A DNA stretch of 64,000 nucleotides. It comes from Acidobacteriota bacterium (lineage in GTDB: Bacteria > Actinomycetota > Acidimicrobiia > Acidimicrobiales > Palsa-688). Shown in pieces: positions 39,453-55,995 of the stretch (within the stretch, counting starts at the first letter, position 1; the number at the start of each line of letters is the position of its first letter). A program made the position numbers and the translations under genes. The stretch lies in the NCBI GenBank assembly GCA_028876385.1, contig JAGWSF010000111.1:1-64000 (forward strand), read 5' to 3'. The notes below the pieces were generated by a model. That model ran no database searches. It had not been told where the DNA came from and saw only the letters and a list, made by a program, of their open reading frames with translations.

Positions 39453-39482
39453 CGGTCAGCGCCCGGGGCCTACGCGCAACGG

Positions 39483-41606
39483 TCAGCTCTTGAACAGGTA
39501 GGCCCGGTCCTCCTCCTCGAGCAGCATCTCGATCTCGGCCGCCAGCCCGGGCAACCCCTCGAGACCGGGATGGTCGTCGACGAGAGCGAAAGCCACCCGG
39601 CGGGCCACCGCCACCAGTTCCTTGTCCCGGCGCAACGACGCCAGCTTGAGGTCGGTGGCCCCCTTCTGGCGGGTACCGAGGATGGTTCCCTCCCCTCTCA
39701 GCTCCAGGTCCACCTCGGCCAGCTCGAAGCCGTCGGTGCTGCGCTCCAGAGCGCCGAGTCGTTCCTCGGAATCGGGCCCCAACCCCTCGCCGAGCAGGTA
39801 GCAGTACGAGACGGCCGCCCCCCGGCCGACCCGGCCGCGTAGCTGGTGCAGCTGGGCTATCCCGAAGCGGTCGGCGTCCTCGATGACCATGACCGTGGCG
39901 TTGGGTACGTCCACGCCGACCTCGATGACCGTCGTGGAGACCAGCACCTCGAGCTGGCCGCGTCGGAACTCGGTCATGACGGCGTCCTTGTCGGCGGCGC
40001 TCATCTGGCCGTGGAGGAGGCCCAGCCTCAGGTTCTCGAGCTCGCCGCCGGGGCCGCCCAGTCGGGCGAACTCCTCGGTGGCCGATTTGGCCTGAATCTT
40101 CTCCGATTCGTCGATGAGCGGGCAGACCACGTAGGCCTGGTGGCCGGCCGCCACCTCGGATCGGACCATGTCCCACGCCGAGGCCTCCTCGAGGGGGCCG
40201 CGGGCCCAGTGGGTGCGGATCGGGGTCCGGCCCGGGGGCAGCTCGTCGAGGATGGTGGTGTCGAGGTCCCCGTAGACGGTCATGGCCGCGGTGCGCGGTA
40301 TGGGGGTGGCGGTCATCACCAGCACGTCGGGAACGGCGTCTCCCGCCCCCTTGTCCCGGAGGGCGGCCCGCTGCTCGACCCCGAAGCGGTGCTGCTCGTC
40401 GATCACCACGCACCCCAAGCTGCGGAAGGCCACCGACTCGGTCAGCAGCGCGTGGGTGCCGATGAGGATGTCGACGCTCCCGTCGGCGAGCCGCTGGTGC
40501 AACCGGTTCCTCTCCGTGGCGGTCGTCCGGTTGGTCAGCAGCGCGACCTCGAGGGGGCGCTCGGCGAAGAGCGTGTCCTCGCTCGGCACCGTCAAGCCGG
40601 CCAGCAGCTGCGACACCCCGGCGTGATGCTGCTCGGCCAGCACCTCCGTCGGGGCCATCAGCGCCCCCTGGTGGCCCCCCTGTACGGCGGTGAGGAGGGC
40701 CATCACGGCCACCACCGTCTTGCCCGCACCGACGTCGCCCTGCAGCAACCGGTGCATCGGGTGGGGGCCGGCCATGTCGGTGGTGATCTCGTCGACCGCC
40801 CGCTTCTGGGCCGCGGTCATGTCGAACGGCAAGCGCTCCTCGAAGCGGGCCACCAGCTCCCCGCCGACGCGGTGGCGGAGGCCCTTGGCCTCGCGCTCCA
40901 TGGCCCGCTTCCTCATCACCAGCACTACTTGGAGGCGTAGCAACTCGTCGAAGGCCAGGCGGGTGCGGGCCTTGGTAGCGGTGGCCATGGAGTCCGGTTC
41001 GTGGATCTGCCGCAGCGCCCAGTCGCGGCTGACCAGGCCGAGCTCGTCGCGCCAGCCGGCCGGCAGCGGGTCGTCGAAGCCGGGTTGCACCCGGCGCAGG
41101 GCCTCGGTGACCCAACCGGCCAGCTGCCAGGTCATCAGACCGGCTTTCTCCGACTGGGGGTAGACGGCGACGATCCGGCCCGTGCGGTCCCCCACCAGAT
41201 CGACCACCGGGTTGGTCATCTGCAGGCGACCCCGGAAACGCTCCACCTTGCCGAAGACGGTGACCTCGGATCCTTCCAGCAGCTGGCGGCCCCGCCACGG
41301 CTGGTTGAAGAACGACACCCGCAGGTAGCTGGAGCCGTCGAACAACTCGCTTTCGACCATGGTCCGCCCCTGGCGGGTCCGCCGGCTGGTGGTCTTGCGC
41401 ACCCGGGCCAGCACCATCGCCGGCTGGCCCTCCACGAGGTCGGCGATCGGTAACTGGTTGGAGCGGTCGATGTAGCGGCGGGGATAGAAGGTGACCAGGT
41501 CCAAGATGGTGGCGATACCCGTCTCGCGCAGGGCCTCGGCGTGTTTGGGCCCGACCCCGCGCAGGCGATCCACCGGGATCCCGGCCAGATCCGGAAGGGA
41601 TTTCAC
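39483..41606 (-). CDS. recG: ATP-dependent DNA helicase RecG
   Basis: RecG remodels stalled forks and branched DNA. The 707-residue protein has the N-terminal wedge/OB domain (GVGPKHAEALRETGIATILDL, LPIADLVEGQPAMVLARV), Walker A LLQGDVGAGKTVVA, the DEAH-type VIDEQHRFGVEQR, MTATPIPRTAAMTVYGDLD and the C-terminal helicase motifs ATEEFARLGG, STTVIEVGVDVPNATVMVIEDADRFGIAQL (two pieces) and QLRGRVGRG. The GTG start lies inside the left attachment repeat. Without the integrated element this start would overlap the stop of the FakA-like gene as GTGA. Confidence 0.96.
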   Translation of the reverse strand: MKSLPDLAGIPVDRLRGVGPKHAEALRETGIATILDLVTFYPRRYIDRSNQLPIADLVEGQPAMVLARVRKTTSRRTRQGRTMVESELFDGSSYLRVSFFNQPWRGRQLLEGSEVTVFGKVERFRGRLQMTNPVVDLVGDRTGRIVAVYPQSEKAGLMTWQLAGWVTEALRRVQPGFDDPLPAGWRDELGLVSRDWALRQIHEPDSMATATKARTRLAFDELLRLQVVLVMRKRAMEREAKGLRHRVGGELVARFEERLPFDMTAAQKRAVDEITTDMAGPHPMHRLLQGDVGAGKTVVAVMALLTAVQGGHQGALMAPTEVLAEQHHAGVSQLLAGLTVPSEDTLFAERPLEVALLTNRTTATERNRLHQRLADGSVDILIGTHALLTESVAFRSLGCVVIDEQHRFGVEQRAALRDKGAGDAVPDVLVMTATPIPRTAAMTVYGDLDTTILDELPPGRTPIRTHWARGPLEEASAWDMVRSEVAAGHQAYVVCPLIDESEKIQAKSATEEFARLGGPGGELENLRLGLLHGQMSAADKDAVMTEFRRGQLEVLVSTTVIEVGVDVPNATVMVIEDADRFGIAQLHQLRGRVGRGAAVSYCYLLGEGLGPDSEERLGALERSTDGFELAEVDLELRGEGTILGTRQKGATDLKLASLRRDKELVAVARRVAFALVDDHPGLEGLPGLAAEIEMLLEEEDRAYLFKS

Positions 41607-41620
41607 TCGATGCTGAACAG
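41603..41620. other. attL core (18-bp direct repeat)
   Basis: The sequence TCACTCGATGCTGAACAG is identical to 57581-57598. The bases flanking it differ on both sides (T/C before, C/G after). On the minus strand it reads as the last five codons plus stop of the FakA-like gene, and it contains the recG GTG at 41604-41606. The element begins at 41621. Confidence 0.93.
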
Positions 41621-41724
41621 CGATGACGCTGCTACCGCTGTAGTACGGCCCATACCCAGCGCAGACTACCGAACCGCCAGGAGCACAATTATCGAGCGAC
41701 AGAAAGGGGTCTAGAAGGGCGACG

Positions 41725-42315
41725 ATGACTGGCGAATTTCACCCGGGTTCCCCCACCAACGTCTCACGTTGTGAGCCACACTCGAACATGCCGGTAGACA
41801 TTCTCGGCCAGGTACTCGACGTCGACACCTGGCAGCCGCTCTCCTCGTGCGCCGACCCGAAGCTCGCTGCCGGGGCCAACTGGTTCCCGGCCCAGCACCA
41901 CGCTCGGGACGCCGCCACCGAGCAGGCCTACCGGGTGTGTGCCGCCTGCCCGGTGCGGATCCAGTGCCTGGCCTACGCGCTCCTCCAGGACCGCAACCGG
42001 GACCGGTCGATCTTCGGCGGGGTCAGCCCTCGTCGCCGGTCCCGGTTGAAGCGGATCCTGGCCGAGGCCGGTCTACCCATCGCCCTACGGGTCTGCACCC
42101 ACTGCGGTCGCAGGTTCTCGACGACCATCACCTACCCACGCGAGCGGGTGTGCTGCTCCGACACCTGCCGAGCCGCTCGCCGGCGGACGCTGTCGCAGGG
42201 CCAGGAGGGAAGACGCTCCCGGCGCCTACATGGGGTCGCGGCGCTCGCCGTCGGCGTCGATAACGCGCTCGGTCCAGCGGGCGCCGTCCCACCAGCGTTT
42301 CATGTGACGGCCTGA
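41725..42315 (+). CDS. WhiB-like Fe-S transcription factor with an extra C-terminal cysteine cluster (element-encoded)
   Basis: The 196-residue protein has the WhiB cluster C42, C72, C75, C81 (VCAACPVRIQC), expected to bind a [4Fe-4S] cluster, followed by the turn and basic tail IFGGVSPRRRSRLKR. A second metal-site-like cluster follows (CTHC at 124-127, then CC at 143-144 and C148), then an Arg-rich segment. Phage-borne WhiB proteins are known from mycobacteriophages, where one can block host WhiB2 and superinfection. AAGGG lies five bases before the ATG. It stands at the element's left end, divergent from recG. Its last 90 bases overlap the 3' end of the DUF2510 gene, so the tail beyond residue 165 may be fortuitous. 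Confidence 0.88.
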   Translation: MTGEFHPGSPTNVSRCEPHSNMPVDILGQVLDVDTWQPLSSCADPKLAAGANWFPAQHHARDAATEQAYRVCAACPVRIQCLAYALLQDRNRDRSIFGGVSPRRRSRLKRILAEAGLPIALRVCTHCGRRFSTTITYPRERVCCSDTCRAARRRTLSQGQEGRRSRRLHGVAALAVGVDNALGPAGAVPPAFHVTA

Positions 42316-42537
42316 GGGGTCCGCATACCAGCCGGCGGCTCGTGCGGGCTGCGTGGGTGTGCGGAGGAGTCCGAGGACTCTCTGCTGGTAGGCGGCTTCC
42401 CGGTTGGCTAGTTCCACCTCGAGCGCGAACTGCCGCTCGGATGCCCTCATGATCCGGGCCTTCTTGGAGTTCGGGTTGACCGCGACCCGGCCGAGGCCGC
42501 CTGTCCCGACGATGAACGCCTTGCGAAGGAACCCCAT
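42226..42537 (-). CDS. DUF2510 domain protein
   Basis: The 103-residue protein ends with a DUF2510 motif (AGWYADPSGRHMKRWWDGARW), a small actinobacterial domain often found near membrane proteins. The N-terminal half (MGFLRKAFIVGTGGLGRVAV) and a helical middle region have no clear match. AAGGGG lies five bases before the ATG, within the end of the HTH gene two bases upstream, so the pair is an operon. Its 3' end overlaps that of the WhiB-like gene on the other strand. Confidence 0.85.
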   Translation of the reverse strand: MGFLRKAFIVGTGGLGRVAVNPNSKKARIMRASERQFALEVELANREAAYQQRVLGLLRTPTQPARAAGWYADPSGRHMKRWWDGARWTERVIDADGERRDPM

Positions 42538-42539
42538 GG

Positions 42540-42740
42540 CTACCCCTTCCCGGTGTCGGCGCCCTTATCGTAGCGGCCGGCCGCTTTCGCCCAGGTTTCG
42601 ACGTCATCCCGGAGCCATATGCGCCCGGCGCTGATCTCTCCTACTGGAGTGGGGAAGTCGCCGGCGCGGCTCAGTTGATCGGCGCGTTGGCGGCTCACGC
42701 CGAGCATTTGGCCGATCTCCTTGACCCCGACGAGATCCAT
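42540..42740 (-). CDS. Small HTH DNA-binding protein (AlpA/excisionase-like)
   Basis: This 66-residue protein has a MerR/AlpA-type helix-turn-helix: VGVKEIGQMLGVSRQRADQL, then FPTPVGEISAGRIWLRDDVETWAK, the usual wing and specificity segment of excisionase-like proteins. ATG 42740 starts the domain exactly; an upstream in-frame stretch is non-conserved. It could be the excisionase or the control protein of the element, and its position at a divergent promoter region fits a regulator. The choice between the two roles is open. Confidence 0.8.
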   Translation of the reverse strand: MDLVGVKEIGQMLGVSRQRADQLSRAGDFPTPVGEISAGRIWLRDDVETWAKAAGRYDKGADTGKG

Positions 42741-42749
42741 ACTCTCATC

Positions 42750-42801
42750 TTGACAGACGCAAGTGCCCGTGCCAAGGTGGGCATTGACACACGCAAGGCC
42801 C
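42750..42801. promoter_or_regulatory. Direct repeats in the divergent control region (candidate operators)
   Basis: Two copies of TTGACA(G/C)ACGCAAG(T/G)(G/C)CC start at 42750 and 42784, 34 bp apart. They lie between the HTH gene (minus) and the plus-strand gene at 42850. The TTGACA of each resembles a -35 box on the plus strand, but no good -10 box follows. The spacing of about three helical turns suits a regulator binding one face of the DNA. Confidence 0.45.
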
Positions 42802-42827
42802 CGGCGGTGCTCGAACACCCCGGGGCC
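42797..42827. other. Stable hairpin upstream of the plus-strand gene
   Basis: GGCCCCGG (42797-42804) pairs with CCGGGGCC (42820-42827), and GGTG pairs with CACC inside it around a CTCGAA loop, with a single bulged C. That makes a 12-bp stem. It lies ten bases before the AAGGAG of the gene at 42850, so it could act as an attenuator in that leader. It overlaps the end of the second direct repeat. Confidence 0.6.
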
Positions 42828-42849
42828 CGGACACCGAAGGAGAGCTTCG

Positions 42850-43434
42850 ATGACAACGACAACGGTAGACGCCCGCCCGAACGCCCGGAAGGCTGACCGG
42901 CTGGCCGCCGTGCTCGCTCAGATGGCCGACAGTCTCGACGTGGCCCGCCAGGAAGAGGGAAGCCGGGGTGAGCGGGCACTCGCCTCTGTTCTCGACGCCG
43001 CCCGCCAGGTCGCCCGGCTCCTGCCGGCGTCGACGCCTGCCGCCCAGCGGAAGGAGACGATCGCCGGTCTGGCCGGGCGACTGTGGATGATCCGGCCGCT
43101 CCCAGGTCCCGACGACGTGGAGGCAGATGCGGCACCCGCAGAGGGCACGCCGGCCGGCGCCGAGGCCAACTGCTGCATGCTCGGCCGTGCAGGCGACGGT
43201 GATGTCGGGGCCCACAGCGAGCTGCTGCGGCTACTGACCAAGCCGGGGTTCGTGGAGGACGTCTCGAGGCTGCTGGCCGTGGTGGAAGACGCGGGGTGCG
43301 TCGAGGACCGCAATCTGACCGACCTGCTCGTTCACCACTTCGCTGACTTCGAGCAGCCGACCGCAGTCTACGGACTGGTCCGCGACCTCGAGGACATCCT
43401 TCGGCTGCGGGCCGAGGCGTCGGCCCTCTGCTGA
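42850..43434 (+). CDS. Element-encoded protein of unknown function (194 aa)
   Basis: I do not recognise the family. The protein is mostly helical and soluble, with an N-terminal helical segment (ADRLAAVLAQMADSLDVARQEEG), a Pro/Ala/Glu linker with a CC pair, and a C-terminal helical part (LLRLLTKPGFVEDVSRLLAVVED). AAGGAGAG lies about six bases before ATG 42850. It is the only plus-strand gene of the element besides the WhiB-like gene and converges on the tail hub gene across a strong terminator. An early or lysogenic role is possible by position only. Confidence 0.75.
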   Translation: MTTTTVDARPNARKADRLAAVLAQMADSLDVARQEEGSRGERALASVLDAARQVARLLPASTPAAQRKETIAGLAGRLWMIRPLPGPDDVEADAAPAEGTPAGAEANCCMLGRAGDGDVGAHSELLRLLTKPGFVEDVSRLLAVVEDAGCVEDRNLTDLLVHHFADFEQPTAVYGLVRDLEDILRLRAEASALC

Positions 43435-43456
43435 GCAGGGCACGGCCATAGGCGTG

Positions 43457-43489
43457 TGGGACCCCAGCAGCGGGAGTGCTGGGGTCCCA
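43457..43489. terminator. Bidirectional hairpin terminator between convergent genes
   Basis: TGGGACCCCAGCA (43457-43469) is the exact reverse complement of TGCTGGGGTCCCA (43477-43489), with a 7-base loop GCGGGAG. The 13-bp perfect stem lies between the plus-strand gene ending at 43434 and the tail hub gene ending at 43523. There is no T-run, which is common for actinobacterial terminators. Confidence 0.8.
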
Positions 43490-43522
43490 TCGCGTCCGGG
43501 CCCGCTGTCCGGGTCGGCGCTG

Positions 43523-45592
43523 CTAGCCGGTCCCGTAGTTCAGGTAGGGGATGATCGCCGCCCGCGACCAGTACGACTCCGGCACCCAAGATGTGCCGAC
43601 CTGCGCGCCCGGATAGGGGGCTTGGAGGACGAGGACTTCGGTGTCGTTGTTCCGGGTCTGGCCGAGCGAGATCGCCACATGCTCCCCGCCCGGCGTGCCG
43701 TCTGCGCTGTCGACGAAGAGGAGGGCGCCGTAGGTGATCGACGCCAGCGGGACCGGTTCCACCGCGCCGGGGATGGCGGCGCACGCCGCCCACTGGTCGC
43801 CGGACACCCTCGGGAAGGTGACGCCGAGCTGGGAGAGGGCCCACTGGACCAGGCCGGAGCAGTCGAACCCGACGCCGGCCTGCTCGCCGCCCCACACGTA
43901 GGGGACGCCGACCTGGCTTTCGGCGATTTGGACGAACTGGACGGAGGTGGCCTGCGGCGGGTGGCCGGTCGGGTCGGTCTGCGGCGGCGACGGCGCCACA
44001 CCGCCCGGCTGGGCGGCTACGGGGTCTTTTACTTCGTTGGCGGTGATGGTGACCGGGGTCTGGCCGTCGTAGGCCCACTGGACGCCGGTGACGAGCCACT
44101 GTTTGGATGAGAAGTACGGGACTCCGGATAGCTCGAGGAGCTGCCCGACGCGGACCTGCTCGCCGAGGGAGTGGGGCAGGTCGACCATGAGGGTGTCGCC
44201 GGTGAATAGCGACACTGAGCGCAGGCATCGGGGGATGTTCAGGGTGGCCACGGCGTCGGGGTCGATCGGGTAGTTGGAGCGGCCGTTGACGCCGATCTTG
44301 AAGCTGGGGGCGACGGTGGCCAGCCACGTCGGTTTCCCGAACACCACGGTGCCGCCGGACTCGAACAGCCAGTAGCCCTCGTCGTAGCAGAGCTGCTGGG
44401 CAACGTCGTAGTAGGACATCCACTGGGTGACCGGCAGCGAGGCGTTGGCCATGATCTGCGGTCGTGTCTCGGTGTAGTCGCCCAGGAAGGTGGCCGGCGG
44501 AACGCCGGGCGGGAGTTGCTCGTTGTACTGCAGGACGCACTGCTCAATCCACTGGGTGGCCGACAGGCCGGTCCATACCTGCATCTTGCGGGTTGCTGCC
44601 ATCCACTGCAGGCAGCCGGTGCGGAGGGTGATGATGGCGCCCGGTATCTGGTTGGTGTCAGTCGTCTGGTATTCGGCGACAACGAGGACGTCGCTGCCCC
44701 ACACGAGGTACGGTCCGACCTGGCCGGAGTCTTGGTTGAGGAGCCCCGGGATGCCGCCGGTGATGTCTCCGTCGACGTCGACCACGGTGAGCTGTATCTG
44801 GGAGAGCTGGTCCTTGGTGAGGTCGACCGCTGATTCGGTGGTGATGATGGAGCTCAGGAGGTCTGACTTCGGGAGGCCCTGGGGGGTCAGGACCGACCAC
44901 TGGAACGTCGAGGCGGTGATGCGGCCCGGGGCCGTCCACCGGGGGTCGATGCCCGGGATCTGGCCGGCGGCCGGCTGGACTACCGGCAGTCCGGGCGGCG
45001 GGGGGCTGCTCGAGGGAGCAGCGGTGGTGATGTTTCCGGTGGAATCGACCGACAGGACAGGGTTCCCGCCGAGGATCGTGTTGTAGATCGAGATGATCTG
45101 CTGCCCGTAAGTGGTTCCGGGCACCGCCCAGTTGTCGTTCAGGCCGGACCAGGTCGACGCCGGCCGGCCCAGCCACTGCGGGGACACGTCCGGGTTGGCC
45201 AGGGCGACGCCGTTCCCGCCGACGACTTTGGCGAGGAGCTGGATGTGGGCGCGGACGCCGAGCTGCGGGGTCGGCCACCCGTCACCAGCGGAGAATTCTG
45301 TCGCGACGGCGATCCCGGCGTAGTTGTTCTTGGCCAGGAGTGGTCCGGCGTTAGGGGCGGCGAAATAGCCGGTTTCGAGACAAGCTTGAGCGAAGGCCAC
45401 GTCGCCTCGCACGCCCTGGGCGGCGCCTTCCGTGATGTAGAGGGCGGCGACCTGGTCGATCGAGACGGACTGACCGGTGAAGATGTCACCCCATCCGACG
45501 ACATGGTTGTTAGCGGCCAGCCATGCCGAGATCTGCTGGCCGGTCAGTGACGACGGCCCGAGAATGGTGAGGGCGCCGGCGTCGGCGGGCAT
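43523..45592 (-). CDS. Phage tail hub protein with N-terminal glucosaminidase-like and C-terminal NlpC/P60 domains
   Basis: The 689-residue protein seems to combine three parts. Residues about 20-175 resemble FlgJ/LytD-type glucosaminidases (VAFAQACLETGYF, with candidate catalytic Glu near 72, and NNYAGIAVATEF). The middle part (about 210-540) has the pattern of a tail hub or baseplate protein, including VDLPHSLGEQVRVGQLLELSG. The C-terminal NlpC/P60 peptidase has VPYVWGGEQAGVGFDCSGLVQWAL with catalytic Cys near 577 and the His of GGEHVAISL near 636. It probably opens the cell wall at the tip of the tail. The ATG overlaps the tape measure stop (TGATG). Confidence 0.88.
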   Translation of the reverse strand: MPADAGALTILGPSSLTGQQISAWLAANNHVVGWGDIFTGQSVSIDQVAALYITEGAAQGVRGDVAFAQACLETGYFAAPNAGPLLAKNNYAGIAVATEFSAGDGWPTPQLGVRAHIQLLAKVVGGNGVALANPDVSPQWLGRPASTWSGLNDNWAVPGTTYGQQIISIYNTILGGNPVLSVDSTGNITTAAPSSSPPPPGLPVVQPAAGQIPGIDPRWTAPGRITASTFQWSVLTPQGLPKSDLLSSIITTESAVDLTKDQLSQIQLTVVDVDGDITGGIPGLLNQDSGQVGPYLVWGSDVLVVAEYQTTDTNQIPGAIITLRTGCLQWMAATRKMQVWTGLSATQWIEQCVLQYNEQLPPGVPPATFLGDYTETRPQIMANASLPVTQWMSYYDVAQQLCYDEGYWLFESGGTVVFGKPTWLATVAPSFKIGVNGRSNYPIDPDAVATLNIPRCLRSVSLFTGDTLMVDLPHSLGEQVRVGQLLELSGVPYFSSKQWLVTGVQWAYDGQTPVTITANEVKDPVAAQPGGVAPSPPQTDPTGHPPQATSVQFVQIAESQVGVPYVWGGEQAGVGFDCSGLVQWALSQLGVTFPRVSGDQWAACAAIPGAVEPVPLASITYGALLFVDSADGTPGGEHVAISLGQTRNNDTEVLVLQAPYPGAQVGTSWVPESYWSRAAIIPYLNYGTG

Positions 45593-47499
45593 CAACCGCC
45601 TCTACGCGCGGTCATCTGCTTCTGGGCGTTGATCTGGGCGTTGATCGCCTTCGGCACGGCGTTGGCGACCTTGGTCGGGTCGCCGGCGCCGGGGACGGTC
45701 ACGTTGATCGTCTTGATGCTGGTGTGGCCTCCGCCACCGCCGAAGAGGCCTTCGAGGCCTCGGACGGCGGAGCCGACGATCCCGGACCGGACGACGCTGA
45801 TGCCTGCGCCGACGGTGGCGCCTCCGATCGCTCCGACTGCGGTCCCGATGCCGGGGATGAAAGAGCCCGCCATAGCGCCTGCCGCGGTGGCGCCGCCGAC
45901 GGTATCGAGGTAGTCGGACATGCCGAAGTGTTTGGCCGTGGCGCCGTGGTAGGCGAGGTAGCCGCCGCCGCCTATCGCTCCGAGCGCCCCCAGCTTGCCG
46001 CCTAGGCCGCCGAGCGCCCCGCCGGCGCCCGCGGCGGTCTCGGCTCCGGTCTCCGCCGCCGCGGTCGCCGCGACAGCCTCCTGCGCCTGCGCCAGGCCGC
46101 TCAGCCCCCGCGACCAGGCGGCGAGAGCCGACAGGGCGCCCTGGGCTTCCATCACCGCAGAGAACGCCTTGATGGCCCCGGTGGCGTCCTGGGTCCAGCG
46201 GGCCACTCTGGCCAGGACGATCAGCCCGCCGAACGTGCCGATCAGCGCCTCCGTCGCCGTGCGGTGCTGCCCCATGAAATCGAGGACATCGGCGAACCCT
46301 TTCAAAGCGGGGGTGGCGACGGCCATCAGGTCCTCGCCCATCGGGATCACCTCGTGGGTCACGATGTTGTCCAGGCCGTGTAGGGCGGTCACCATGATGT
46401 TGATGTCGCCGGCCAGTTTCGGGTCGCCGACGATCCCGGCCAGCGTCGCCGACAGGCCGGCCATGTTCCCCGACGACCACTCCTGGCCGATGCCGCCGCC
46501 GAGCTGCTTGAACCGCGACTCGGTCCCTTTCGCCCAGCCGTCGATCTTGGCTGAGGCGCCGGCCAGGGCGTTCCCGAGCGGCGTCTCGAACACCGCCAGC
46601 ATGTCCCCCACCGACTTCTTCATCGAGTCGACCTGACCGGCCCACGTCTGGTCGTAGGCGCCCTTGCCGCCGGTCGCGCCCGGCGACGACATCAGGTCGG
46701 ACATGAACGACGACGGGGTCGCCATCGGCGTCCCGGCCCGCAGGAACCGCGTCCGCAGCTCCTGAGGCGACTGGCCGGTCTCCTTGGCCAGCATGCCCCA
46801 GATGTTGACGTTCGCTCCGGAGAAGGCCTGCACGTCGCTGGTGGTGAGCAGCCCGGTCGACTGCATCGAAGCGATCGCCGAGCTCATGGCCTGGAACGAG
46901 GCGTTCGGGTTGCCGGACACGGCGGCCAGACCGGAAAGGCCTTTGAGGGTTGAGAGGGTCGAGTCGTTCGACATGCCTGACTGGAACAGCGACGAGTAGC
47001 CGCCCTCGAGCTGGCTGAGACCGACCGGGCCTTGCATCTGGCGGAGCCGGGCGAGAGCCGCCGCGCCGACCGTCGCCGAGCCGGTCAGGTTCGACAGGGC
47101 GAGTGCCCCCTGCTGAAGGCTGGAGGCCGTGAGGAGACCGAAGGTGACCATCCCGGCCCCCGCCGCCTCCATCGTCCACGAGAGCTGCTGCATCGGGTAC
47201 TGCAGCCGCTCCGTGATGCTCTCGCCGACCGACGAGATACCTTCCCGCAGCTTCTTGCCGGACTCGTACAGCTCGTCGTAGGCCTTCTTCAACCGCTTCG
47301 ACCCCGCCGCGACCTGCTCGGTCCGCTGGTGGGTGGCGTCCAGGTGGGCGCCGAGCTGGCCTACGGCGGTGCCGGCCTGGGCGGTGCCGGTCTTGGTCGC
47401 CTCGGTCAGCGCTTTGATCGCGGCGGCGTCCTCGGCGGCCTTCACCGGGACGTCGGAGAGCATCTCCACCCGGATAGTCAGAGTGTCGGAATCGGCCAT
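45592..47499 (-). CDS. Phage tape measure protein
   Basis: The 635-residue protein has the expected composition: a helical N-terminus with charged coiled coil (residues 1-95), the tape-measure-like segment QQGALALSNLTGSATVGAAALARLRQM, a long Ala/Gly/Ser/Met-rich region and glycine-rich hydrophobic stretches near 480-570, ending with the charged KAINAQINAQKQMTARR. Tape measure proteins set tail length and pass through the tail during injection. This is short (at about 1.5 angstrom per residue, a tail near 95 nm, by the general rule). It is the second-largest gene of the tail module. Confidence 0.9.
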   Translation of the reverse strand: MADSDTLTIRVEMLSDVPVKAAEDAAAIKALTEATKTGTAQAGTAVGQLGAHLDATHQRTEQVAAGSKRLKKAYDELYESGKKLREGISSVGESITERLQYPMQQLSWTMEAAGAGMVTFGLLTASSLQQGALALSNLTGSATVGAAALARLRQMQGPVGLSQLEGGYSSLFQSGMSNDSTLSTLKGLSGLAAVSGNPNASFQAMSSAIASMQSTGLLTTSDVQAFSGANVNIWGMLAKETGQSPQELRTRFLRAGTPMATPSSFMSDLMSSPGATGGKGAYDQTWAGQVDSMKKSVGDMLAVFETPLGNALAGASAKIDGWAKGTESRFKQLGGGIGQEWSSGNMAGLSATLAGIVGDPKLAGDINIMVTALHGLDNIVTHEVIPMGEDLMAVATPALKGFADVLDFMGQHRTATEALIGTFGGLIVLARVARWTQDATGAIKAFSAVMEAQGALSALAAWSRGLSGLAQAQEAVAATAAAETGAETAAGAGGALGGLGGKLGALGAIGGGGYLAYHGATAKHFGMSDYLDTVGGATAAGAMAGSFIPGIGTAVGAIGGATVGAGISVVRSGIVGSAVRGLEGLFGGGGGHTSIKTINVTVPGAGDPTKVANAVPKAINAQINAQKQMTARRGG

Positions 47500-47524
47500 A
47501 GGAGCGGGGGTCGGTGGGGGCGGT

Positions 47525-48010
47525 TCAGCTGGTGAACGGTGAGCGGTACACGAGGCGTGCTTCTACCGGCGCCGCCGGCTGGGCGGCCTGGCGGGCGGCG
47601 TTCCGGTTGGCGCTCTCGGCGGCGGCCGACGTCGCCTGGCGGGCCAGGTCGGCCCGTAGCGGCTCGACGTGGCCGGTGACGTGGGGTCGGGGCTGGGTGG
47701 AGCGGTACCGGTTGAACCACTCGGGGCGGGTGGCTGTGAGTAGCCACTCGCCGGTCTCGACTCGCCGCACCAGGTCCCGCCGCTGGTCTTCGGTGACCAC
47801 CGGGACGGTCTTGCGGTACCCGGGCCCGCCGCGGGAGGGGACCTCGACGGTCACGGTGGGGTCCACGACGCGGCCGGCGACGGTCTCGTAGGGGTCGCGG
47901 ACGACGAGCCGGGCCCGCTCCTCGGCGGTGAGCGACGACGGGTCGATACCGTACGAGGAGCGGCGTCCGACGCCGGGCACGTCGGGCAGGCGGCGCTCGA
48001 CGTGGCTCAT
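47525..48010 (-). CDS. Phage protein upstream of the tape measure gene (161 aa)
   Basis: I do not recognise the family. The protein starts MSHVERRLPDVPGVGRRSSYG and has a central charged region (SLTAEERARLVVRDPYETV, VVTEDQRRDLVRRVETGEWLL) and an Ala/Arg-rich helical C-terminus. ATG 48010 overlaps the upstream stop (ATGA). The position just before the tape measure gene is where tail assembly chaperones usually lie, but no slippery frameshift site is visible. Confidence 0.75.
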   Translation of the reverse strand: MSHVERRLPDVPGVGRRSSYGIDPSSLTAEERARLVVRDPYETVAGRVVDPTVTVEVPSRGGPGYRKTVPVVTEDQRRDLVRRVETGEWLLTATRPEWFNRYRSTQPRPHVTGHVEPLRADLARQATSAAAESANRNAARQAAQPAAPVEARLVYRSPFTS

Positions 48011-48573
48011 CGCGCCGGCCGCCGGGACTGCAGACCGGGCAGCGAGTCCACGAACCGGTCGAGGTCCTCCTCTGACGGGCCGGCGGGTGCGGCGAGGGAG
48101 GAGCTCCCTGCGCCGGCGGGATGGCCGGCCGCTGGTGCGGCGGCGCGCCCGCCGGTCAGGCCCAGGCCGGCCAGGAAGGCGTCCCACGCCTCCTCGGGCG
48201 GTTCGCCGGCCGCCGGCGGCGCGGACAGGGCGGCAGGCGGCTGAGGGCCCCTCGGGGTCGCCGGGAGGGTCACCGGGTTGGCTCGGGCGGCGGCCGCCGC
48301 GGCGAGCAGCTGGGGGGTCGCGAGCGCTGCCCGGGAACGCAGCTCGGCCAGAGCCGCCGCGTCGACTGTCACCATTTGGCCCATGAGGGCACCTCCGTTG
48401 ATTGGGGGAACGTCAGGCCCGGGATCGGGCGGGGCGAGCGGCCCGGAGAAGTAGGCGATGCCGTCGTCGGTCGCCTCGAAGGCGCGCATCACGGCGGCCA
48501 TCGCGCCATCTGGCACGTTCCCGGCTTTCCAGTCGTCCACGACGGCGAGGAAGGCGCTCCGGTTGACCGTCAC
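48007..48573 (-). CDS. Phage protein of unknown function (188 aa)
   Basis: The protein starts MTVNRSAFLAVVDDWKAGNVP, has a helical first half and a Pro/Ala-rich second half, and ends with SEEDLDRFVDSLPGLQSRR. The start GTG 48573 overlaps the upstream stop (GTGA), and its own stop overlaps the next gene. An upstream in-frame extension is rejected. It occupies the first slot of a possible G/T chaperone pair, though the sequence does not show it. Confidence 0.72.
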   Translation of the reverse strand: MTVNRSAFLAVVDDWKAGNVPDGAMAAVMRAFEATDDGIAYFSGPLAPPDPGPDVPPINGGALMGQMVTVDAAALAELRSRAALATPQLLAAAAAARANPVTLPATPRGPQPPAALSAPPAAGEPPEEAWDAFLAGLGLTGGRAAAPAAGHPAGAGSSSLAAPAGPSEEDLDRFVDSLPGLQSRRPAR

Positions 48574-48896
48574 CGCCGGTACCACCACTGCGGTGAGGTG
48601 TCGACGGTGACGGCGGACCCGGCGAGCATGGGCTGCCAGGACGTGCCGGCCCACACGGCGCCCGAGGTGACCGTGACCGCTACCGCGGCGAGAGCGGAAC
48701 CGGTCGGGAACGAGCTGTGGCGGGCCCAGGCGCCGGTAGCGGCCACCCACAGCCCGTTCTGCGAGGCCGTGGCCTGGCCGACGAGCAGGACCGTCTGGCC
48801 GGCGGCCACAGCCTGCCCGTCGATGACCTGCAGTCCCGAAGTGGGCACGTTGATGACCGACACCGCGGCCGCGGAGATCGGGCCGGTGACGGTCAT
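48570..48896 (-). CDS. Small beta-rich phage structural protein (108 aa)
   Basis: The sequence is dominated by Val, Ala, Thr and Ser and contains QAVAAGQTVLLVGQATASQNGLWVAA, here cited in two overlapping parts of a single motif (QTVLLVGQATASQNG and ASQNGLWVAATGAW). This pattern recurs in phage tail or decoration proteins. ATG 48896 overlaps the upstream stop (ATGA). It is likely a virion surface or tail fibre component. A longer in-frame reading upstream is antisense-like and rejected. Confidence 0.75.
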   Translation of the reverse strand: MTVTGPISAAAVSVINVPTSGLQVIDGQAVAAGQTVLLVGQATASQNGLWVAATGAWARHSSFPTGSALAAVAVTVTSGAVWAGTSWQPMLAGSAVTVDTSPQWWYRR

Positions 48897-49489
48897 GGCA
48901 TCTCCCCTATCCAGTCGGGCACGGCGGCCGCGGCCAGTCCGGCGATGGGTGTGAGCGCGGCCGGGAGCGCCAGGTCGAGCACGTCGAACGGTGCCGGCAG
49001 GCCGGCCGTCCCGGACGTGACGGTGTTCTGGGTGGCCACGAAGAACCCGCCGGGCAGCAGGCCGACGGAGGGAGGGTTGGTCACGGTGGGCAGCCCCAGG
49101 GTCCGGAATGACACCCCGGGAGGCGCCCATGACGGCACCGACAGCCCCTGGAGCGTCGACACGCCGGGGACCGCCGCCGGCCACGGGACGACCGGCCCGG
49201 CGCCCGGCAGCGTCAGACACTCGAGAAGCGGCCCGTAGACGATGTCGGTGACGCCCGGCTGGGCGGTGTAGGTCCACAGCTGGCACGGAACGAAGAAGGT
49301 GTCGGACGGCAGGTGGTGCAGCATCAGCGAGAACCCGGTCAGCGCCGCCGCGGGCGCGGCCGGCCGCACCGTCTTTGGGATGCCGGCGCCGAGCGCCGAT
49401 GAATGCTCGTCCTCGGCCAGAAACGCCGCGGCGAACCCCTCGACGTCGGTTCCGGCGGTGGCGGCGAACACCGGGGAGAAGTGCGTCAC
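48893..49489 (-). CDS. Phage protein, probably structural (198 aa)
   Basis: I do not recognise the family. The protein starts MTHFSPVFAATAGTDVEGFAAAF and is rich in Pro, Gly, Val, Leu and aromatic residues with few charges (LPSDTFFVPCQLWTYTAQPG, WAPPGVSFRTLGLP). This fits a beta-rich virion protein. It is too short for a typical HK97-type capsid protein. Overlaps with both neighbours (GTGA and ATGA) place it firmly in the operon. Confidence 0.72.
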   Translation of the reverse strand: MTHFSPVFAATAGTDVEGFAAAFLAEDEHSSALGAGIPKTVRPAAPAAALTGFSLMLHHLPSDTFFVPCQLWTYTAQPGVTDIVYGPLLECLTLPGAGPVVPWPAAVPGVSTLQGLSVPSWAPPGVSFRTLGLPTVTNPPSVGLLPGGFFVATQNTVTSGTAGLPAPFDVLDLALPAALTPIAGLAAAAVPDWIGEMP

Positions 49490-49782
49490 CGCCGGGACCT
49501 CGCCGACGGGCCCGCACTGGCGCGGGTGTCGGCGGGCGGTGACACGGGCCCACCTGCACCTGTTGACGCCGTGTCACCGCCTGACGGCACCCGCGCCGAG
49601 ACCAGATCGATCGGCCGGCCCTCGAGCTCCTTGAGGGCGTCCAAGGCGTCCAAGGCGTCCTCGAGGAGCCGCCCGGCCGGCTTACCCGACCTCATCGACG
49701 ACTGCAGCAACCGAAGCCTGGTCTGGCGGTCTGCCACGAAATGGACCGGTACCGGATCGACGAAAAGACTCGTTCGAGACAT
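49486..49782 (-). CDS. Phage protein of unknown function (98 aa)
   Basis: The small protein has a folded N-terminal half (SLFVDPVPVHFVADRQTRLRLL, with helical LLEDALDALDALKELEG) and a disordered Pro/Ser/Thr-rich C-terminal third. ATG 49782 has GGTGG just upstream; the overlap with the next gene is GTGA. The 70-bp gap between this gene and the one at 49853 is the only non-coding break between large terminase and the tail genes. Confidence 0.65.
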   Translation of the reverse strand: MSRTSLFVDPVPVHFVADRQTRLRLLQSSMRSGKPAGRLLEDALDALDALKELEGRPIDLVSARVPSGGDTASTGAGGPVSPPADTRASAGPSARSRR

Positions 49783-49852
49783 CAACCACCACGATCACCG
49801 ACACCCCGGCGCCGGTCGCCGCTATTCCGTCGACTTCGATGCCAGTAAACCG

Positions 49853-50194
49853 TCAGAATGGTCTGGTCAGGATGTCGGCGATCATCGCCCGGCCGGGCCG
49901 ACGAGCCGCCGCCTCCGCCGCCTCCGCCGACACCGCCCGATCCACCCGAGCCGTCCGCTCGCGCCGGGCCCGCCCCGGGTCAGCCACATCCGGCCGGCGG
50001 GCGTAGCGGTGCTCGGCCACCGCCCCGTCATCATCGTCGACTAAGGCCCCGGCGCAGCACCACCAGCACCGCCGGTAGCCCGGCGGGGCGGCCGGAAGCG
50101 TCACCGCAGTGATCACCGTCCCGCACAGGGCCGTCTCCACCCGGGTACCCGCCGGCACCGGCCCCCGCTCCAGATCGACCGATTCCGCCGGCAT
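49853..50194 (-). CDS. Phage protein of unknown function, next to the large terminase (113 aa)
   Basis: The protein has a beta-rich N-terminal part (AGTRVETALCGTVITAVTLP) with a Cys/Trp-rich motif YRRCWWCC and an Arg/Ala-rich helical C-terminus. The ATG overlaps the terminase stop by one base (TGATG). In ordinary siphophages the portal gene follows large terminase at this place; this product is far too small to be a portal. Confidence 0.68.
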   Translation of the reverse strand: MPAESVDLERGPVPAGTRVETALCGTVITAVTLPAAPPGYRRCWWCCAGALVDDDDGAVAEHRYARRPDVADPGRARRERTARVDRAVSAEAAEAAARRPGRAMIADILTRPF

Positions 50195-51615
50195 CAGAAC
50201 TCCATCCGGGTCAGCGCAGCCGTGAACGTCGGGCCCATCACAGCCCGCATCCGCTGGAACTCCGCCTCCCGCTGCGCCGGCGACACGAACCGCGACGCCG
50301 ACCCCAGCCGCTCCGACGCCAACGTCACCGCATACCCAAGGGCCATGGCCCTATCGTCCCTGCCGCCGGGACGAGTGTCGATGCGCAGCCGGCCCGGCGA
50401 CCGCTCCGTCACCTTCACCGTCGCCAGCTCGTCCAGCAGCGCACCGTCCGCCGGGATCGAGATCAGATCCTCCCGGAACAGCGCCGCCAGCTGCGTCGCG
50501 ATCTGATCGAACAGGACCGCCGAGTACGCCCGCTTCTCCACGCTCAACCCCCGCCGCCGCAACCTCTCGATCAGCAGCTCCGCCTGCCACGGATCGAACC
50601 GGAACACAGGGCGCCGATAGTGCTCCGAGATCGCCACCAACACCCGCTCCACCTCCTCCAAATTCACCGGCGCCCCCGGCGACCCCTCCCGCACCTCCAG
50701 GCGGTCCACCACAAATCGGCGAGACCGAACATCCCCCACCCCAGCCAACTCCGTGTGAACCACCGCAATCGCCGTCCGGTCATGACTCAACCCCAAGTCC
50801 ACCCCGACGAAATACTCCCTCCCAGGAACCCATACCTGCGGCCCCGACAGCACCGCAGCCCGCCGCAACTGCCCCCACGACGCCAACCGGTCATCCGTCC
50901 CCACCCACTCATTCATGAACCACCGAGCGAACCGCCCCGGCATCAACGTCCGCCGCTGCTCCTCCACCTCCGCCGCACCCATCCACGGCGACGGCCCCTT
51001 CACATCCGACCTCCGCCAACCCCGCTCACGGCCAGCCATCTCGAAATAGCGCTCCGAGAAATGCCCCGGCGCCCCCGCCGTCGACATCACAATCCCCCGA
51101 GACCCCGACACCTTCGCCAAACCCGCCCACAACGTCTCAAAGAACTCCCGGTGCCGCTCATCCTCCGACCAGTTACACAACTCGTCGACCACCAGCCACC
51201 CCGGCTTCAACCCGTTCGCCCCAGCACTATCCGCCGGCAACACCACCAGCTCCGTCCCCCGACTCGGCACGACCACCCTCTTCGACTCGATCCGCACCAC
51301 ATCCGACAACCCCGGAGTCCGATTCACGAACCCCCGCATCGCCCTCAACAACAGACCAGCCTGATCCGCGTCCGTCGCCGCCGCATACGCCTCAGCCCCC
51401 GGCCGCAACTGCTCGAGGAGCACCGCCAAACTCATCGCAGCCGTATCCCCCGTCTTGCTATAGCCCTTCGCGCGCCCCAGCCAGTGACGACGAGGACCGC
51501 CAGGCGCAGGCTCCAACACCGCCCGAGCATCCGCCTTCTGCAACTCCGTCGCCACATCCCCCCACCGCCGCCCATCCTCAAGACGAAACGCCGCCATCGT
51601 CGCCAACGCACTCAC
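50194..51615 (-). CDS. terL: Phage terminase large subunit
   Basis: The packaging motor ATPase-nuclease has 473 residues. The Walker A-like motif GRAKGYSKTGDTA lies at 47-59, Walker B LVVDEL at 141-146, and the coupling segment GIVMSTAGAPG at 174-184. The RNase H-like nuclease begins with FVGVDLGLSHDRTAI (Asp near 273) and carries GGRDDRAMALGYA near 430. It starts at GTG 51615 overlapping the upstream stop. Codon third positions are strongly biased to G, unlike the C-biased primase gene. Its presence implies packaging of DNA, by its own or a helper's heads. Confidence 0.93.
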   Translation of the reverse strand: MSALATMAAFRLEDGRRWGDVATELQKADARAVLEPAPGGPRRHWLGRAKGYSKTGDTAAMSLAVLLEQLRPGAEAYAAATDADQAGLLLRAMRGFVNRTPGLSDVVRIESKRVVVPSRGTELVVLPADSAGANGLKPGWLVVDELCNWSEDERHREFFETLWAGLAKVSGSRGIVMSTAGAPGHFSERYFEMAGRERGWRRSDVKGPSPWMGAAEVEEQRRTLMPGRFARWFMNEWVGTDDRLASWGQLRRAAVLSGPQVWVPGREYFVGVDLGLSHDRTAIAVVHTELAGVGDVRSRRFVVDRLEVREGSPGAPVNLEEVERVLVAISEHYRRPVFRFDPWQAELLIERLRRRGLSVEKRAYSAVLFDQIATQLAALFREDLISIPADGALLDELATVKVTERSPGRLRIDTRPGGRDDRAMALGYAVTLASERLGSASRFVSPAQREAEFQRMRAVMGPTFTAALTRMEF

Positions 51616-51851
51616 AGCTCCAACCTCCTACACGCGGCCACCACATCCGCCACCGACGCCCCCACCGGATCGACCCCAGCCGCCACCAGCAGCGCATCCA
51701 CCACCTCCGCAACCCCCATCCGCTCAGGCACCGCACCAGGACGGACCCCCAACATCTGCTCGCCGAGCAACGCCACCACAACCACCACCCCCAGATCGAA
51801 CCCCTCAGCCGACAACACCCGAACGAGCTCGGCGAACTCCGCGCGCGTCAC
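51612..51851 (-). CDS. Small phage protein upstream of terL (79 aa)
   Basis: The acidic, hydrophobic protein starts MTRAEFAELVRVLSAEG and ends with ASVADVVAACRRLEL. It is coupled to terL by a GTGA overlap. Its start overlaps the end of the preceding gene by 47 bases, longer than other overlaps in the element. A role with the small terminase subunit is only possible by position. It shares the G-rich third positions of terL. Confidence 0.65.
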   Translation of the reverse strand: MTRAEFAELVRVLSAEGFDLGVVVVVALLGEQMLGVRPGAVPERMGVAEVVDALLVAAGVDPVGASVADVVAACRRLEL

Positions 51852-52023
51852 CCGACACCCCCAGCCGGCTCTTCACAGGCGCGAGCAGCGCTAGGAAGAT
51901 CGAGATGGACCGGACCTCATCGTCGGTCAACGGTGGGCCCGGTATCGGGATCGAGCCGACCAGCTCGCCGGCAGCGAACGCCGCGGTCAGCTGCTCGAGC
52001 ACCACCTGCACCCGAGGCGTCAC
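51805..52023 (-). CDS. Small phage protein of unknown function (72 aa)
   Basis: The protein starts MTPRVQVVLEQLTAAFAAGEL and contains PLTDDEVRSISIFLALLAPV. GTG 52023 overlaps the upstream stop (GTGA). The last 15 codons lie over the start of the next gene in another frame and may not be conserved. No family is recognised. Confidence 0.62.
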   Translation of the reverse strand: MTPRVQVVLEQLTAAFAAGELVGSIPIPGPPLTDDEVRSISIFLALLAPVKSRLGVSGDARGVRRARSGVVG

Positions 52024-52664
52024 GTCCAGCCCCCAACGTCATCGGGCGATCCCGGCCCGTACCGGTCGACGCCTTGGCACGCCCTGCAGACGCCTTCGGC
52101 TGGGGCCGGGTCGCCGCAGCGAGGGCAGTACGTCGGGCCGTCTGCGGTCGCCAGGCGGTCGGCCGGCGTGTCGAGACGGTCAGCGTCGGGCAGGTCGCCG
52201 GGGTCGACCGCCGGCAGCTCGCCCACCGGCGTCCTGGCAGCGACGATCGCTGCGCCCTCGGCTCGTAGCCGCTCAAGGACATCGTCGGCGCCCTCGGTCG
52301 CACTGAATGTTTGGAGGAGCCTGGCGAACGAAACAGGATCGAGACCGAGAGCAGCATCCCGGTTCGCTGCGTTCGTCTCCCACTTGTGGAAGGCGTCAAC
52401 GACTGCCCTCACGTTGCCATGCTCGTCCACGACGCCGTTCTCGACGATGTCCCGCCAGAGAAGCTCGGCGACCGCCAGCGCCCGGCAACGCCTGCGTCGC
52501 GCTGAAGTGAACGCCGGTCGGCTGACCCATGGCGCCATGGCCGGAAGGGCTGCCTCGATCTCCTCGGCAAGAGGACCGACCTTCCGCTCACTGTAGGCGC
52601 CGTGACGCATCGTGATGGTGTGACCCTGCTCGAACGGCGGCCAGCTGTATCCACGCCCAGCCAT
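52020..52664 (-). CDS. Putative terminase small subunit-like protein (HGAYS motif)
   Basis: The 214-residue protein starts MAGRGYSWPPFEQGHTITMRHGAYSERKVGPLAEE. The phrase FEQGHTITMRHGAYS is typical of proteins just upstream of terL in actinophages. A helical middle (VAELLWRDIVENGVVDEHGN, HKWETNAANRDAALGLDP) may bind DNA, and a zinc-ribbon-like C-terminus follows (CPRCGDPAPAEGVCRAC). The call as small terminase rests on position and motif memory, so the functional name is tentative. Confidence 0.7.
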   Translation of the reverse strand: MAGRGYSWPPFEQGHTITMRHGAYSERKVGPLAEEIEAALPAMAPWVSRPAFTSARRRRCRALAVAELLWRDIVENGVVDEHGNVRAVVDAFHKWETNAANRDAALGLDPVSFARLLQTFSATEGADDVLERLRAEGAAIVAARTPVGELPAVDPGDLPDADRLDTPADRLATADGPTYCPRCGDPAPAEGVCRACQGVDRYGPGSPDDVGGWT

Positions 52665-52964
52665 TTCAGGGCGCCTCGCTCGATGCTGTGACGCTATCTA
52701 CAGCGCTGCGGCCGCTTGACCAGCGGCTATGCGTTGCGCACGGCAGCTCTATCGCATAACTCGACGGTGCTAGCCCCAGCAAGCACTCTACGCGCGCATC
52801 ATTCGTACCAGCGGCATGACCCGCGATCAACGGTCCGCTGGCATCGGTCTGGAGGCCACCGCGGACCCTTGCGGAGGGGTTGTCCGTTAACTCTTCATGT
52901 AGGCGTGTGCATGCGTTAATGGGCAATGGGTCCGCATGGGTCCGCGGTGGTGCGTAAGTGCTGG
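52665..52964. other. 300-bp non-coding region between primase and terminase modules
   Basis: The region is less GC-rich than its surroundings and carries no supportable gene; short frames here lack ribosome binding sites. It contains two GTTAA words (52885, 52914), a repeated GGGTCCGC (52927, 52936) and, on the minus strand, TTGCTG followed 18 bp later by TATGCG (about 52780-52751), a weak promoter candidate for the terminase operon. It may also hold the element's replication origin. Position 52679 shows a partial match to the att core. Confidence 0.45.
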
Positions 52965-55127: not shown

Positions 55128-55297
55128 CACCGGGGGCGCCTCGTCAGCCACTGCACCATCTGCTCGACCTGAGCGTCGGTCCACATCGGCCGCTTACGGC
55201 GGATGTGCTCGTGTAGGCGGCCGATCCTCTCGGCTCTGGCCCGGATCCGCCTGGCGGCCTCGTCGGGGTCCCAGCCCGGTGGGGGCCCGGCGGTCAC
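55127..55297 (-). CDS. Small phage protein upstream of primase (56 aa)
   Basis: The helical, basic protein has AARRIRARAERIGRLHEHIRRK and MWTDAQVEQMVQWL. GTG 55297 overlaps the upstream stop (GTGA) and its stop overlaps the primase ATG by one base, which supports it despite its size. A longer in-frame reading to 55600 is antisense-like and rejected. No family is recognised. Confidence 0.62.
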   Translation of the reverse strand: MTAGPPPGWDPDEAARRIRARAERIGRLHEHIRRKRPMWTDAQVEQMVQWLTRRPR

Positions 55298-55602
55298 CGG
55301 AACACCGCCCATGACAGCGGGTACCGGCTCAGGCCGGGGTCGGCGGCCAGGCATCCGGACTTGTGCACGAAGTTCACCAGGCTCAGCTCGGGGCTGACCT
55401 CGGTGACGTGCGTGCCCTTCGAGCGGCACAGGGGGCACCGGCCGGTTCTGGCGGTGACCGCTCGAGCTGCGAGGCCCTGCTTGTCCCGTTCGGGTGCCGC
55501 GTCGGGGATGGGCGCCTCGATGATCGCGGCCGACTGCAGCCGCCTGCGAAATGACCTGCCGGCGCTCACAGGACCACACCAATAGCGGCATGGCTGACAC
55601 AC
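55294..55602 (-). CDS. Cysteine-rich small phage protein (102 aa)
   Basis: The protein starts MCQPCRYWCGP and contains a second pair in GRCPLCRSKGTHV and a later KSGCLAADPGL, suggesting a zinc-binding fold. The start GTG 55602 keeps the first cysteine pair; GTG 55569 is an alternative. It stands first in the operon running into primase, just beyond a terminator-like hairpin. The function is unknown. Confidence 0.65.
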   Translation of the reverse strand: MCQPCRYWCGPVSAGRSFRRRLQSAAIIEAPIPDAAPERDKQGLAARAVTARTGRCPLCRSKGTHVTEVSPELSLVNFVHKSGCLAADPGLSRYPLSWAVFR

Positions 55603-55650
55603 CCGTCCGCTACGCTGAGAGCGCCGTGTCGTGACGGTGAGGGGTTGGTC

Positions 55651-55681
55651 CGAGGTCCGGGTGTGAGCAGCCCGGGCCTCG
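55651..55681 (-). terminator. Hairpin after the gene at 55687
   Basis: CGAGGTCCGGG (55651-55661) pairs with CCCGGGCCTCG (55671-55681) with one G-T wobble and a 9-base loop. It begins five bases beyond the stop of the upstream minus-strand gene. It could end the integrase-side transcript before the primase operon. No T-run follows. Confidence 0.6.
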
Positions 55682-55686
55682 CCGCG

Positions 55687-55995
55687 TCAGGCGACCCCAC
55701 GGCGGCTGACCTTTCGTGCGGCCCGGGCCTTCGCCGAAGCGGCGGCCAGACGCCGGTAGTAGGCCCGTCGGGCGTGCTCGGCCCGGCGTGATCTCTCGGC
55801 GGGGCTCAGGACCCCCTCGGGGTCGACCTCTCGCTCGAAGCGGTCCCGGAACGCCTGGCGGGCCGCCGCGGTGCGGGCGGAGCGATCCTGGGTGCGGGCC
55901 CAGCTCTCGTGCGCGCCGATCGACCCGTAGAGGGCCCTCAGGTTCTTGCGCTCGGTTACCGACTTGGTCGAAGCCGGCGGATTCTTGGGCGGCAA
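55687..55995 (-). CDS. Conserved actinobacterial hypothetical protein, Arg/Ala-rich (102 aa)
   Basis: The protein has the pattern LRALYGSIGAHESWARTQDRSA, then AFRDRFEREVDP and LSPAERSRRAEHARRAYYRRLA, recalling a small family of unknown function that is common in actinobacterial genomes and prophages. It is very basic and helical, so nucleic acid binding is plausible. TTG 55995 has GGAGGT six bases upstream and is preferred to the overlapping frame starting near 56002. Confidence 0.75.
   Translation of the reverse strand: MPPKNPPASTKSVTERKNLRALYGSIGAHESWARTQDRSARTAAARQAFRDRFEREVDPEGVLSPAERSRRAEHARRAYYRRLAAASAKARAARKVSRRGVA

Follow-up and report, generated by a model that had tools for sequence, protein, structure and literature searches.

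A candidate phage satellite from an actinobacterial order with its own tape measure protein and a tail hub predicted to carry two wall hydrolases

In Vibrio cholerae, the satellite PLE11 puts its own tape measure protein (TMP) and its own baseplate hub into contractile tails that are otherwise made of ICP1 proteins (PMC12987554). In the excerpted text of that paper, the authors (Mathur et al. 2026) call these chimeric tails the first known and say that their benefit needs more work. Some cf-PICIs carry predicted tmp genes, according to the legend of Extended Data Fig. 10 of the same paper (PMC12987554). Among proteins with more than one wall-cutting domain, the diffocin protein CD1368 (PDB 8v3w_H) consists of a hub (residues 1-314) followed by a transglycosylase and an endopeptidase, which make up its hydrolase part (PMC10996793, as excerpted), and HydH5 of phage phiIPLA88 combines a CHAP domain with a LYZ2 domain (PMC3150257, as excerpted).

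Here, we describe a 16-kb integrated element that encodes a TMP and, directly after it, a hub joined to two hydrolase domains. Judging from its genes, we think with moderate confidence that it is a phage satellite that would equip the contractile tail of a helper phage with the satellite's TMP and enzyme-bearing hub. If so, the element probably rebuilds the tail of another virus in order to spread. The enzymes on the hub suggest a possible benefit, which is penetration of the walls of Gram-positive recipients.

The integrated element and its genes

The window (the whole stretch of DNA that we analyzed, 64,000 nucleotides) contains an integrated element at 41621..57598, which is 15,978 bp from repeat to repeat. 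Its left attachment repeat, at 41603..41620, is the 18-bp sequence TCACTCGATGCTGAACAG, and an exact copy lies at 57581..57598, at the 3' end of a DAK2/FakA-like gene. As a control, we compared 287 random pairs of 100-bp windows, and the longest word common to any pair was 11. The element is flanked by the DAK2/FakA-like gene and by recG. In a genome from the same genus (G002), the two host flanks are contiguous, which is to say that the site is empty: positions 37003-41620 and 57581-59523 of the window align to a single locus (L083) at about 95-96%, and the two alignments overlap by 18 bases. The site is likewise empty in another genome of the genus (G001).

Most of the element is a set of genes on the minus strand, in the order integrase, small open reading frames (ORFs), D5 primase, probable TerS, TerL, small ORFs, TMP, and hub-lysin, which is the last long gene of the set. 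The tyrosine integrase (56493..57479) matches PF00589 (E = 1.4e-24) and phrog_1. The D5-type primase-helicase (52965..55184), which points to replication of its own, matches PF08706 (E = 1.5e-35) and phrog_6088 (E = 2e-158). The large terminase subunit, TerL (50194..51615), matches PF03354 (E = 7e-9) and phrog_9 (E = 7e-32). The ORF directly upstream of TerL (52020..52664) is, from its position, probably the small terminase subunit, TerS; its match to Terminase_4 (E = 0.21) is just a hint, and tblastn shows that this gene accompanies TerL in other TerL loci as well. On the other side, a small Cys-rich gene with the motif RRCWWCC (49853..50194) adjoins TerL.

Between this gene and the TMP, and still on the minus strand, lie further ORFs. 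The ORF at 48570..49577, whose true start is probably internal, has a C-terminal part of about 100 amino acids that resembles virion decoration or fibre repeats (phrog_2824, E = 6.6e-14, residues 242-332). The small ORFs at 48007..48750 and 47525..48187, the latter preceding the TMP, are both kept in a locus from the same genus (L025), with 46% identity over 188 amino acids and 51% over 129 amino acids, respectively. The TMP itself (45592..47499) has 635 amino acids and matches phrog_973 and PF20155 (TMP_3, E = 6.8e-7, which falls below the Pfam gathering score). The hub-lysin (43523..45592, minus strand) is discussed in the following section.

Beyond the hub-lysin, the minus strand encodes a helix-turn-helix (HTH) protein of the excisionase/AlpA type (42540..42818; phrog_66, E = 2e-8), which has relatives at L073 (60% identity), L086 (49%), and L026 (39%), and a DUF2510 protein (42226..42537; PF10708, E = 4e-11). 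The plus strand encodes a WhiB-like regulator (41725..42315; PF02467, E = 8.5e-11) and an ORF of 223 amino acids (42763..43434) that has no match in Pfam or PHROGs. The latter is a candidate gene for helper interference or regulation.

Among the scanned ORFs of the element, neither Pfam nor PHROGs identified a portal, capsid, sheath, tube, or baseplate wedge protein, nor a holin or a second lysin. A cf-PICI has its own portal and major capsid protein, and neither had a match among these ORFs. A complete prophage has head, tube, and baseplate genes, and none were recognized in an element that is bounded at both ends. What we do find is what satellites have in general: an integrase, genes for replication and packaging, a size in the range of about 10-20 kb, and less than a full set of virion genes. 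The sequence-only reading of this locus had suggested that the hub-lysin might be the sole wall-degrading enzyme of its element. This is right insofar as no other lysin was recognized, but because head, tube, sheath, and wedge genes were not recognized either, the element is not a prophage that has the hub-lysin as its only lysin; it looks like a satellite.

A hub with two hydrolase domains

The ORF of the hub-lysin (43523-45595, minus strand) is uninterrupted and encodes 690 amino acids from a TTG at 45595 or 689 amino acids from an ATG at 45592. The ATG overlaps the stop codon of the TMP gene (TGATG). Residues are given in the 690-amino-acid numbering. Residues 51-173 match PF01832 (Glucosaminidase) with 33.3 bits, above the curated cut-off of 30.2, and residues 563-679 match PF00877 (NLPC_P60) with 53.7 bits, above the curated cut-off of 23. 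In PHROGs, the matches are to tail and lysis families. In the alignment of relatives, E74, which lies in an ETGY motif, is kept in all four rows that span its domain, and we take it to be the catalytic glutamate of the glucosaminidase. C579 and H639 are kept in all five rows that span the C-terminal domain, and Q658 in four of the five (L043 has a glutamate); presumably, these three are the catalytic residues of the NlpC/P60 domain. A fragment from another locus (L042) also has a histidine aligned with position 639.

The middle of the protein was modeled with AlphaFold. For the full-length protein, the model was unusable (pLDDT 35). A model of just the middle domain, built from an alignment of six rows, had a pLDDT of 59 and a pTM of 0.46. 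All 15 of the Foldseek matches in the PDB at E ≤ 0.001 were hub, VgrG, or baseplate-tip proteins, and gp27 of phage T4 was at the top of the VIA-align list (Z = 9.5). The TM-scores of the structural matches, normalized by query length, were low (0.21-0.26) and the rmsd values were large, so the assignment of the fold is only moderate; a profile of the sequence of this domain matched no chain in the PDB at E ≤ 5. The identity of the hub has independent support from gene order, because the homolog in the contractile phage L041 (65% identity) lies between the TMP and the genes for gp25 and baseplate J. The tail operons of both L041 and another phage contig, L028, have the homolog between the TMP and the baseplate genes. 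Given the model and this gene order, the middle domain likely has a gp27-like hub fold.

Overall, these results support a single chain with an N-terminal GH73-type glucosaminidase, a gp27-like hub in the middle, and a C-terminal NlpC/P60 peptidase. This is the architecture that the sequence-only reading had proposed: its chain of 689 residues is an intact frame, both of its hydrolase domains score above the Pfam cut-offs and retain the residues listed above, and its hub-like middle agrees with the structural matches and the gene order, if with moderate confidence in the fold. Its remark that a single such domain is usual in tail-associated lysins was an understatement, since CD1368 and HydH5 have two each (PMC10996793 and PMC3150257, as excerpted). 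The dual-hydrolase hub of the element is of a known kind, with its domains in a new arrangement. Nor is it peculiar to the element, because the contractile phages described below have it in common.

Relatives among satellites and contractile phages

TerL had matches in 18 of the 397 genomes of the order. Nine of the loci were strong matches (E < 1e-90): the window, L025, L026, L070, L071, L051, L072, L073, and L074. We examined these nine and one fragment (L075). No head genes were seen adjoining TerL in the window, L025, L026, or L074. Three other loci are not capsid-less, because L070 and L072 have a portal and L071 has a major head protein. The L051 locus was too short to judge, and at L073, there was no head gene among the three proteins scanned with PHROGs and the five scanned with Pfam. 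L073 (G223:C17, 3333-18338) encodes an integrase, the excisionase-like HTH that is 60% identical to that of the window, TerL, TerS, and an AAA_25 helicase. At L071 (G001:C500, 3255-8051), TerS and TerL of the same wide family lie beside the major head protein, and two recombinase-like genes are close by; this locus is possibly a capsid-carrying counterpart.

Two of the loci, which are diverged relatives, share the gene order of the window element. L026 is a 10.5-kb contig of the metagenome-assembled genome ZJ2.bin36 (the contig is identical to L021), and its order is TerS, TerL, the RRCWWCC gene, small ORFs, TMP, and hub; an integrase gene stands on the opposite side. L025 is a 5.4-kb contig from G001 with the order TerS, TerL, the RRCWWCC gene, small ORFs, and a TMP that is cut off by the contig end after 43 residues. 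The TerL proteins of L025 and L026 are 78% and 42% identical to that of the window. In both loci, no head gene was recognized in the 1.9-2.2 kb between TerL and the TMP; they are short contigs with truncated ends, and a head module could thus lie elsewhere in them; only the elements in the window and in G339 (see below) are fully bounded. In the two satellites with a complete junction, the TMP and hub genes overlap directly, and a 243-amino-acid gene that the phages have at this place is missing. Tail-assembly chaperones diverge fast, and with the chaperone of L041 as the query, no relative was found in the window element, L025, or L026. In a tblastn search of 18 fetched loci and the window element, the RRCWWCC gene was present only in the three satellites (window, L025, and L026). 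Its protein could serve as a marker of the satellite family.

The second fully bounded element, of 18.6 kb, comprises L074 (G339:C191:52000-71900) and L086. It is bounded by a 24-bp repeat, which falls on the end of a tRNA-Gln gene. It encodes an integrase, the HTH at L086, and a run of TerS, TerL, a neck1-like protein, and a TMP of 1660 amino acids with hydrolase-like parts, and there was no capsid gene among the scanned ORFs. This suggests that the plan of a terminase plus a tail core is used also with a TMP of another type.

Outside the satellites, homologs of the TMP and hub are in uncultivated contractile phages from IMG/VR. Two of the contigs, L027 and L028, are 99.95% identical over 6.6 kb and are therefore one phage. 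This phage and L041 have contractile tail operons that encode a sheath, a tube, a tail-assembly chaperone, a TMP, the 243-amino-acid gene (which has an endolysin- or hub-like end), a hub, gp25, and baseplate J. Their hubs have both hydrolase domains, as in the window, with the last part of the L027 hub being cut off. In L028, the hub gene (5026-7038) is interrupted between about 5598 and 5782, where L027 reads through; this could be an assembly error or a true frameshift. In L043, a phage contig that is less closely related, the tail genes are preceded by one for a major head protein, and the hub has the NlpC domain and lacks the glucosaminidase.

These candidate helpers are short contigs (7.5-9.1 kb). 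A search with the TMP did not find a helper resident in the host family: it matched 3 of 32 genomes of the family, and all three matches were satellites. A TMP profile matched 5 of 397 genomes in the order (including partial matches in G020 and G369) and 2 of 395 in the class. Sheath proteins matched in 14 of 61 relatives, at about 30% identity; these matches, including L031 (G000:C220), are perhaps extracellular contractile injection systems rather than helpers. The hub as a single query had no close relatives among viral contigs, and alignment-based searches then found some; a search of genome contigs returned one locus. Against known phages, the hub matched 76 of 50,697 records, none of which covered 80% of the query, the TMP had no match, and TerL had one match, at 26% identity.

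The TMP and hub of the window are closer to those of the phage L041 (61% and 65% identity) than to those of the satellite L026 (52% and 49%). Of the L026 hub, the N-terminal domain (63% versus 50%) and the C-terminal domain (74% versus 53%) are nearer to the L027/L028 phage, and the middle is about equal. In trees of both proteins, the window groups with L041 with support of 100/100, and a clade of the two satellites (window and L026) is rejected (AU test, p = 3.6e-30 for the hub and 1.9e-4 for the TMP); these trees have five or six rows and a very distant outgroup (L043), and the placement of L026 is not firm. In the TerL tree, the support for joining the window, L025, and L026 is 54/92, so that a single clade of satellites is neither shown nor rejected. 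(One row of that tree, L072, is a portal-containing ORF beside TerL with a very long branch, and should be disregarded.) Within the TMP or the hub, there was no clear recombination joint, and the window is nearest to L041 in most windows of 40 residues. We read these comparisons as a sign that a satellite core may have exchanged its TMP-hub pair with different contractile phages, or taken it from them. Alternatively, the satellites of the window and L026 may have been assembled independently.

Prophage remnants are common, and TMP and hub are the sole tail-core genes recognized in the element. It might then be a decayed prophage whose genes for head, tube, and baseplate are gone, with these two as leftovers; a deletion could account for a single bounded element with tail genes. 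We consider this improbable. Two other elements, with TerL at 42% and 78% identity, have retained this gene order, and between their TerL and TMP no portal or capsid gene was recognized. The 18-bp repeats are exact and the frame of the integrase is open. In nine gene pairs, all with open frames, dN/dS was 0.22-0.61 (Nei-Gojobori, without a model of codon usage and under a strong GC bias). Between the window and L041, it was 0.45 for the TMP and 0.38 for the hub. On the end branches, the values for satellite and phage were 0.32 and 0.27 for the hub and 0.26 and 0.39 for the TMP, and the satellite branches are not unusually long. These low ratios and ordinary branch lengths speak against decay.

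A proposed tail replacement and its parallels

Replacement of tail parts as in PLE11 is the simplest reading, because the element has the same two parts of a contractile tail and lacks the rest. As we picture it, a contractile helper phage would infect the cell, and the element would excise and replicate with its own primase. Its TerS and TerL would fill the heads of the helper with its DNA. In the growing tail, its TMP and hub would take the place of the helper's own, and lysis would be supplied by the helper. The virions would be chimeric, with the tail core and the wall-cutting enzymes coming from the satellite, which rather than the helper would decide these components of its particles. 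On contact, the glucosaminidase of the hub would cut glycan bonds and the NlpC/P60 domain would cut peptide bonds, which would allow the tube and the TMP to reach the membrane. The gain might be tail assembly that withstands defences aimed at tails or control by the helper, or, alternatively, a different range of penetration. It is probably not tail length, because the TMP (635 amino acids) is as long as that of L041 (636 amino acids).

The same two proteins could act as decoys that spoil the assembly of helper tails, with the satellite leaving in particles that have the helper's own tails. Mobile elements are known to interfere with tails (Tai, PMC11364771, and Rta of PLE11, PMC12987554, both as excerpted), and a TMP and hub that are homologous to the helper's could poison it. 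However, a decoy would not need the expected active-site residues that the hub retains for both enzymes, and the TMP and hub of PLE11 are in the virion (PMC12987554, as excerpted), so we doubt that these are decoys. It is very unlikely that no helper particles are involved and that the hub-lysin, although the only wall hydrolase recognized in the element, is a released lysin or belongs to a tailocin-like weapon: tube, sheath, baseplate wedge, and holin were not recognized, hence no tailocin can form, the terminase and primase point to DNA transfer, and the hub gene adjoins the TMP gene with overlapping stop and start codons.

The locus has parallels in several described systems. A hub bearing two wall hydrolases is already known from the diffocin protein CD1368, which likewise joins a gp27-like hub to glycan- and peptide-cutting domains in one chain and whose NlpC/P60-type peptidase matches that of the hub-lysin by sequence; the order of domains differs here, in that the glycan cutter is GH73-like and precedes the hub (PMC10996793, as excerpted). 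HydH5 also joins two domains in one protein, CHAP and a glucosaminidase-type domain (LYZ2), but the excerpted text does not describe this virion protein as a hub (PMC3150257). Like cf-PICIs and the Streptomyces satellites MulchRoom and MiniFlayer, the element has its own TerS and TerL; unlike them, as far as the excerpts of PMC10690885 describe, it would not form its own capsids, as it has no recognized portal or capsid gene. In the subset of PMC that we searched, which mostly excludes subscription papers and preprints, we found no actinobacterial satellite described as encoding both a TMP and a hub.

The closest parallel is PLE11, which is likewise an integrated element and has a TMP and a baseplate hub that match those of its contractile helper. 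The element differs in having a tyrosine integrase, its own TerS and TerL, and two wall hydrolases on the hub. PLE11 encodes a tail-assembly chaperone, and none was recognized in the element (these are fast-diverging proteins). The host also belongs to a different phylum than that of the PLEs. The element is apparently independent of the PLEs of Vibrio, and it probably represents a second family of tail-modifying satellites. As to the fuller claim, that an actinobacterial order harbors a second and independent family that builds chimeric contractile tails, retaining a terminase core of its own and swapping its TMP-hub pair with whichever contractile phage it parasitizes, our judgment is evenly balanced. 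If it is true, an unrelated example that also uses a TMP plus a hub, together with the evidence that the TMP-hub pairs of separate satellites belong to separate phage lineages, would make replacement of the tail core a recurring strategy of satellites.
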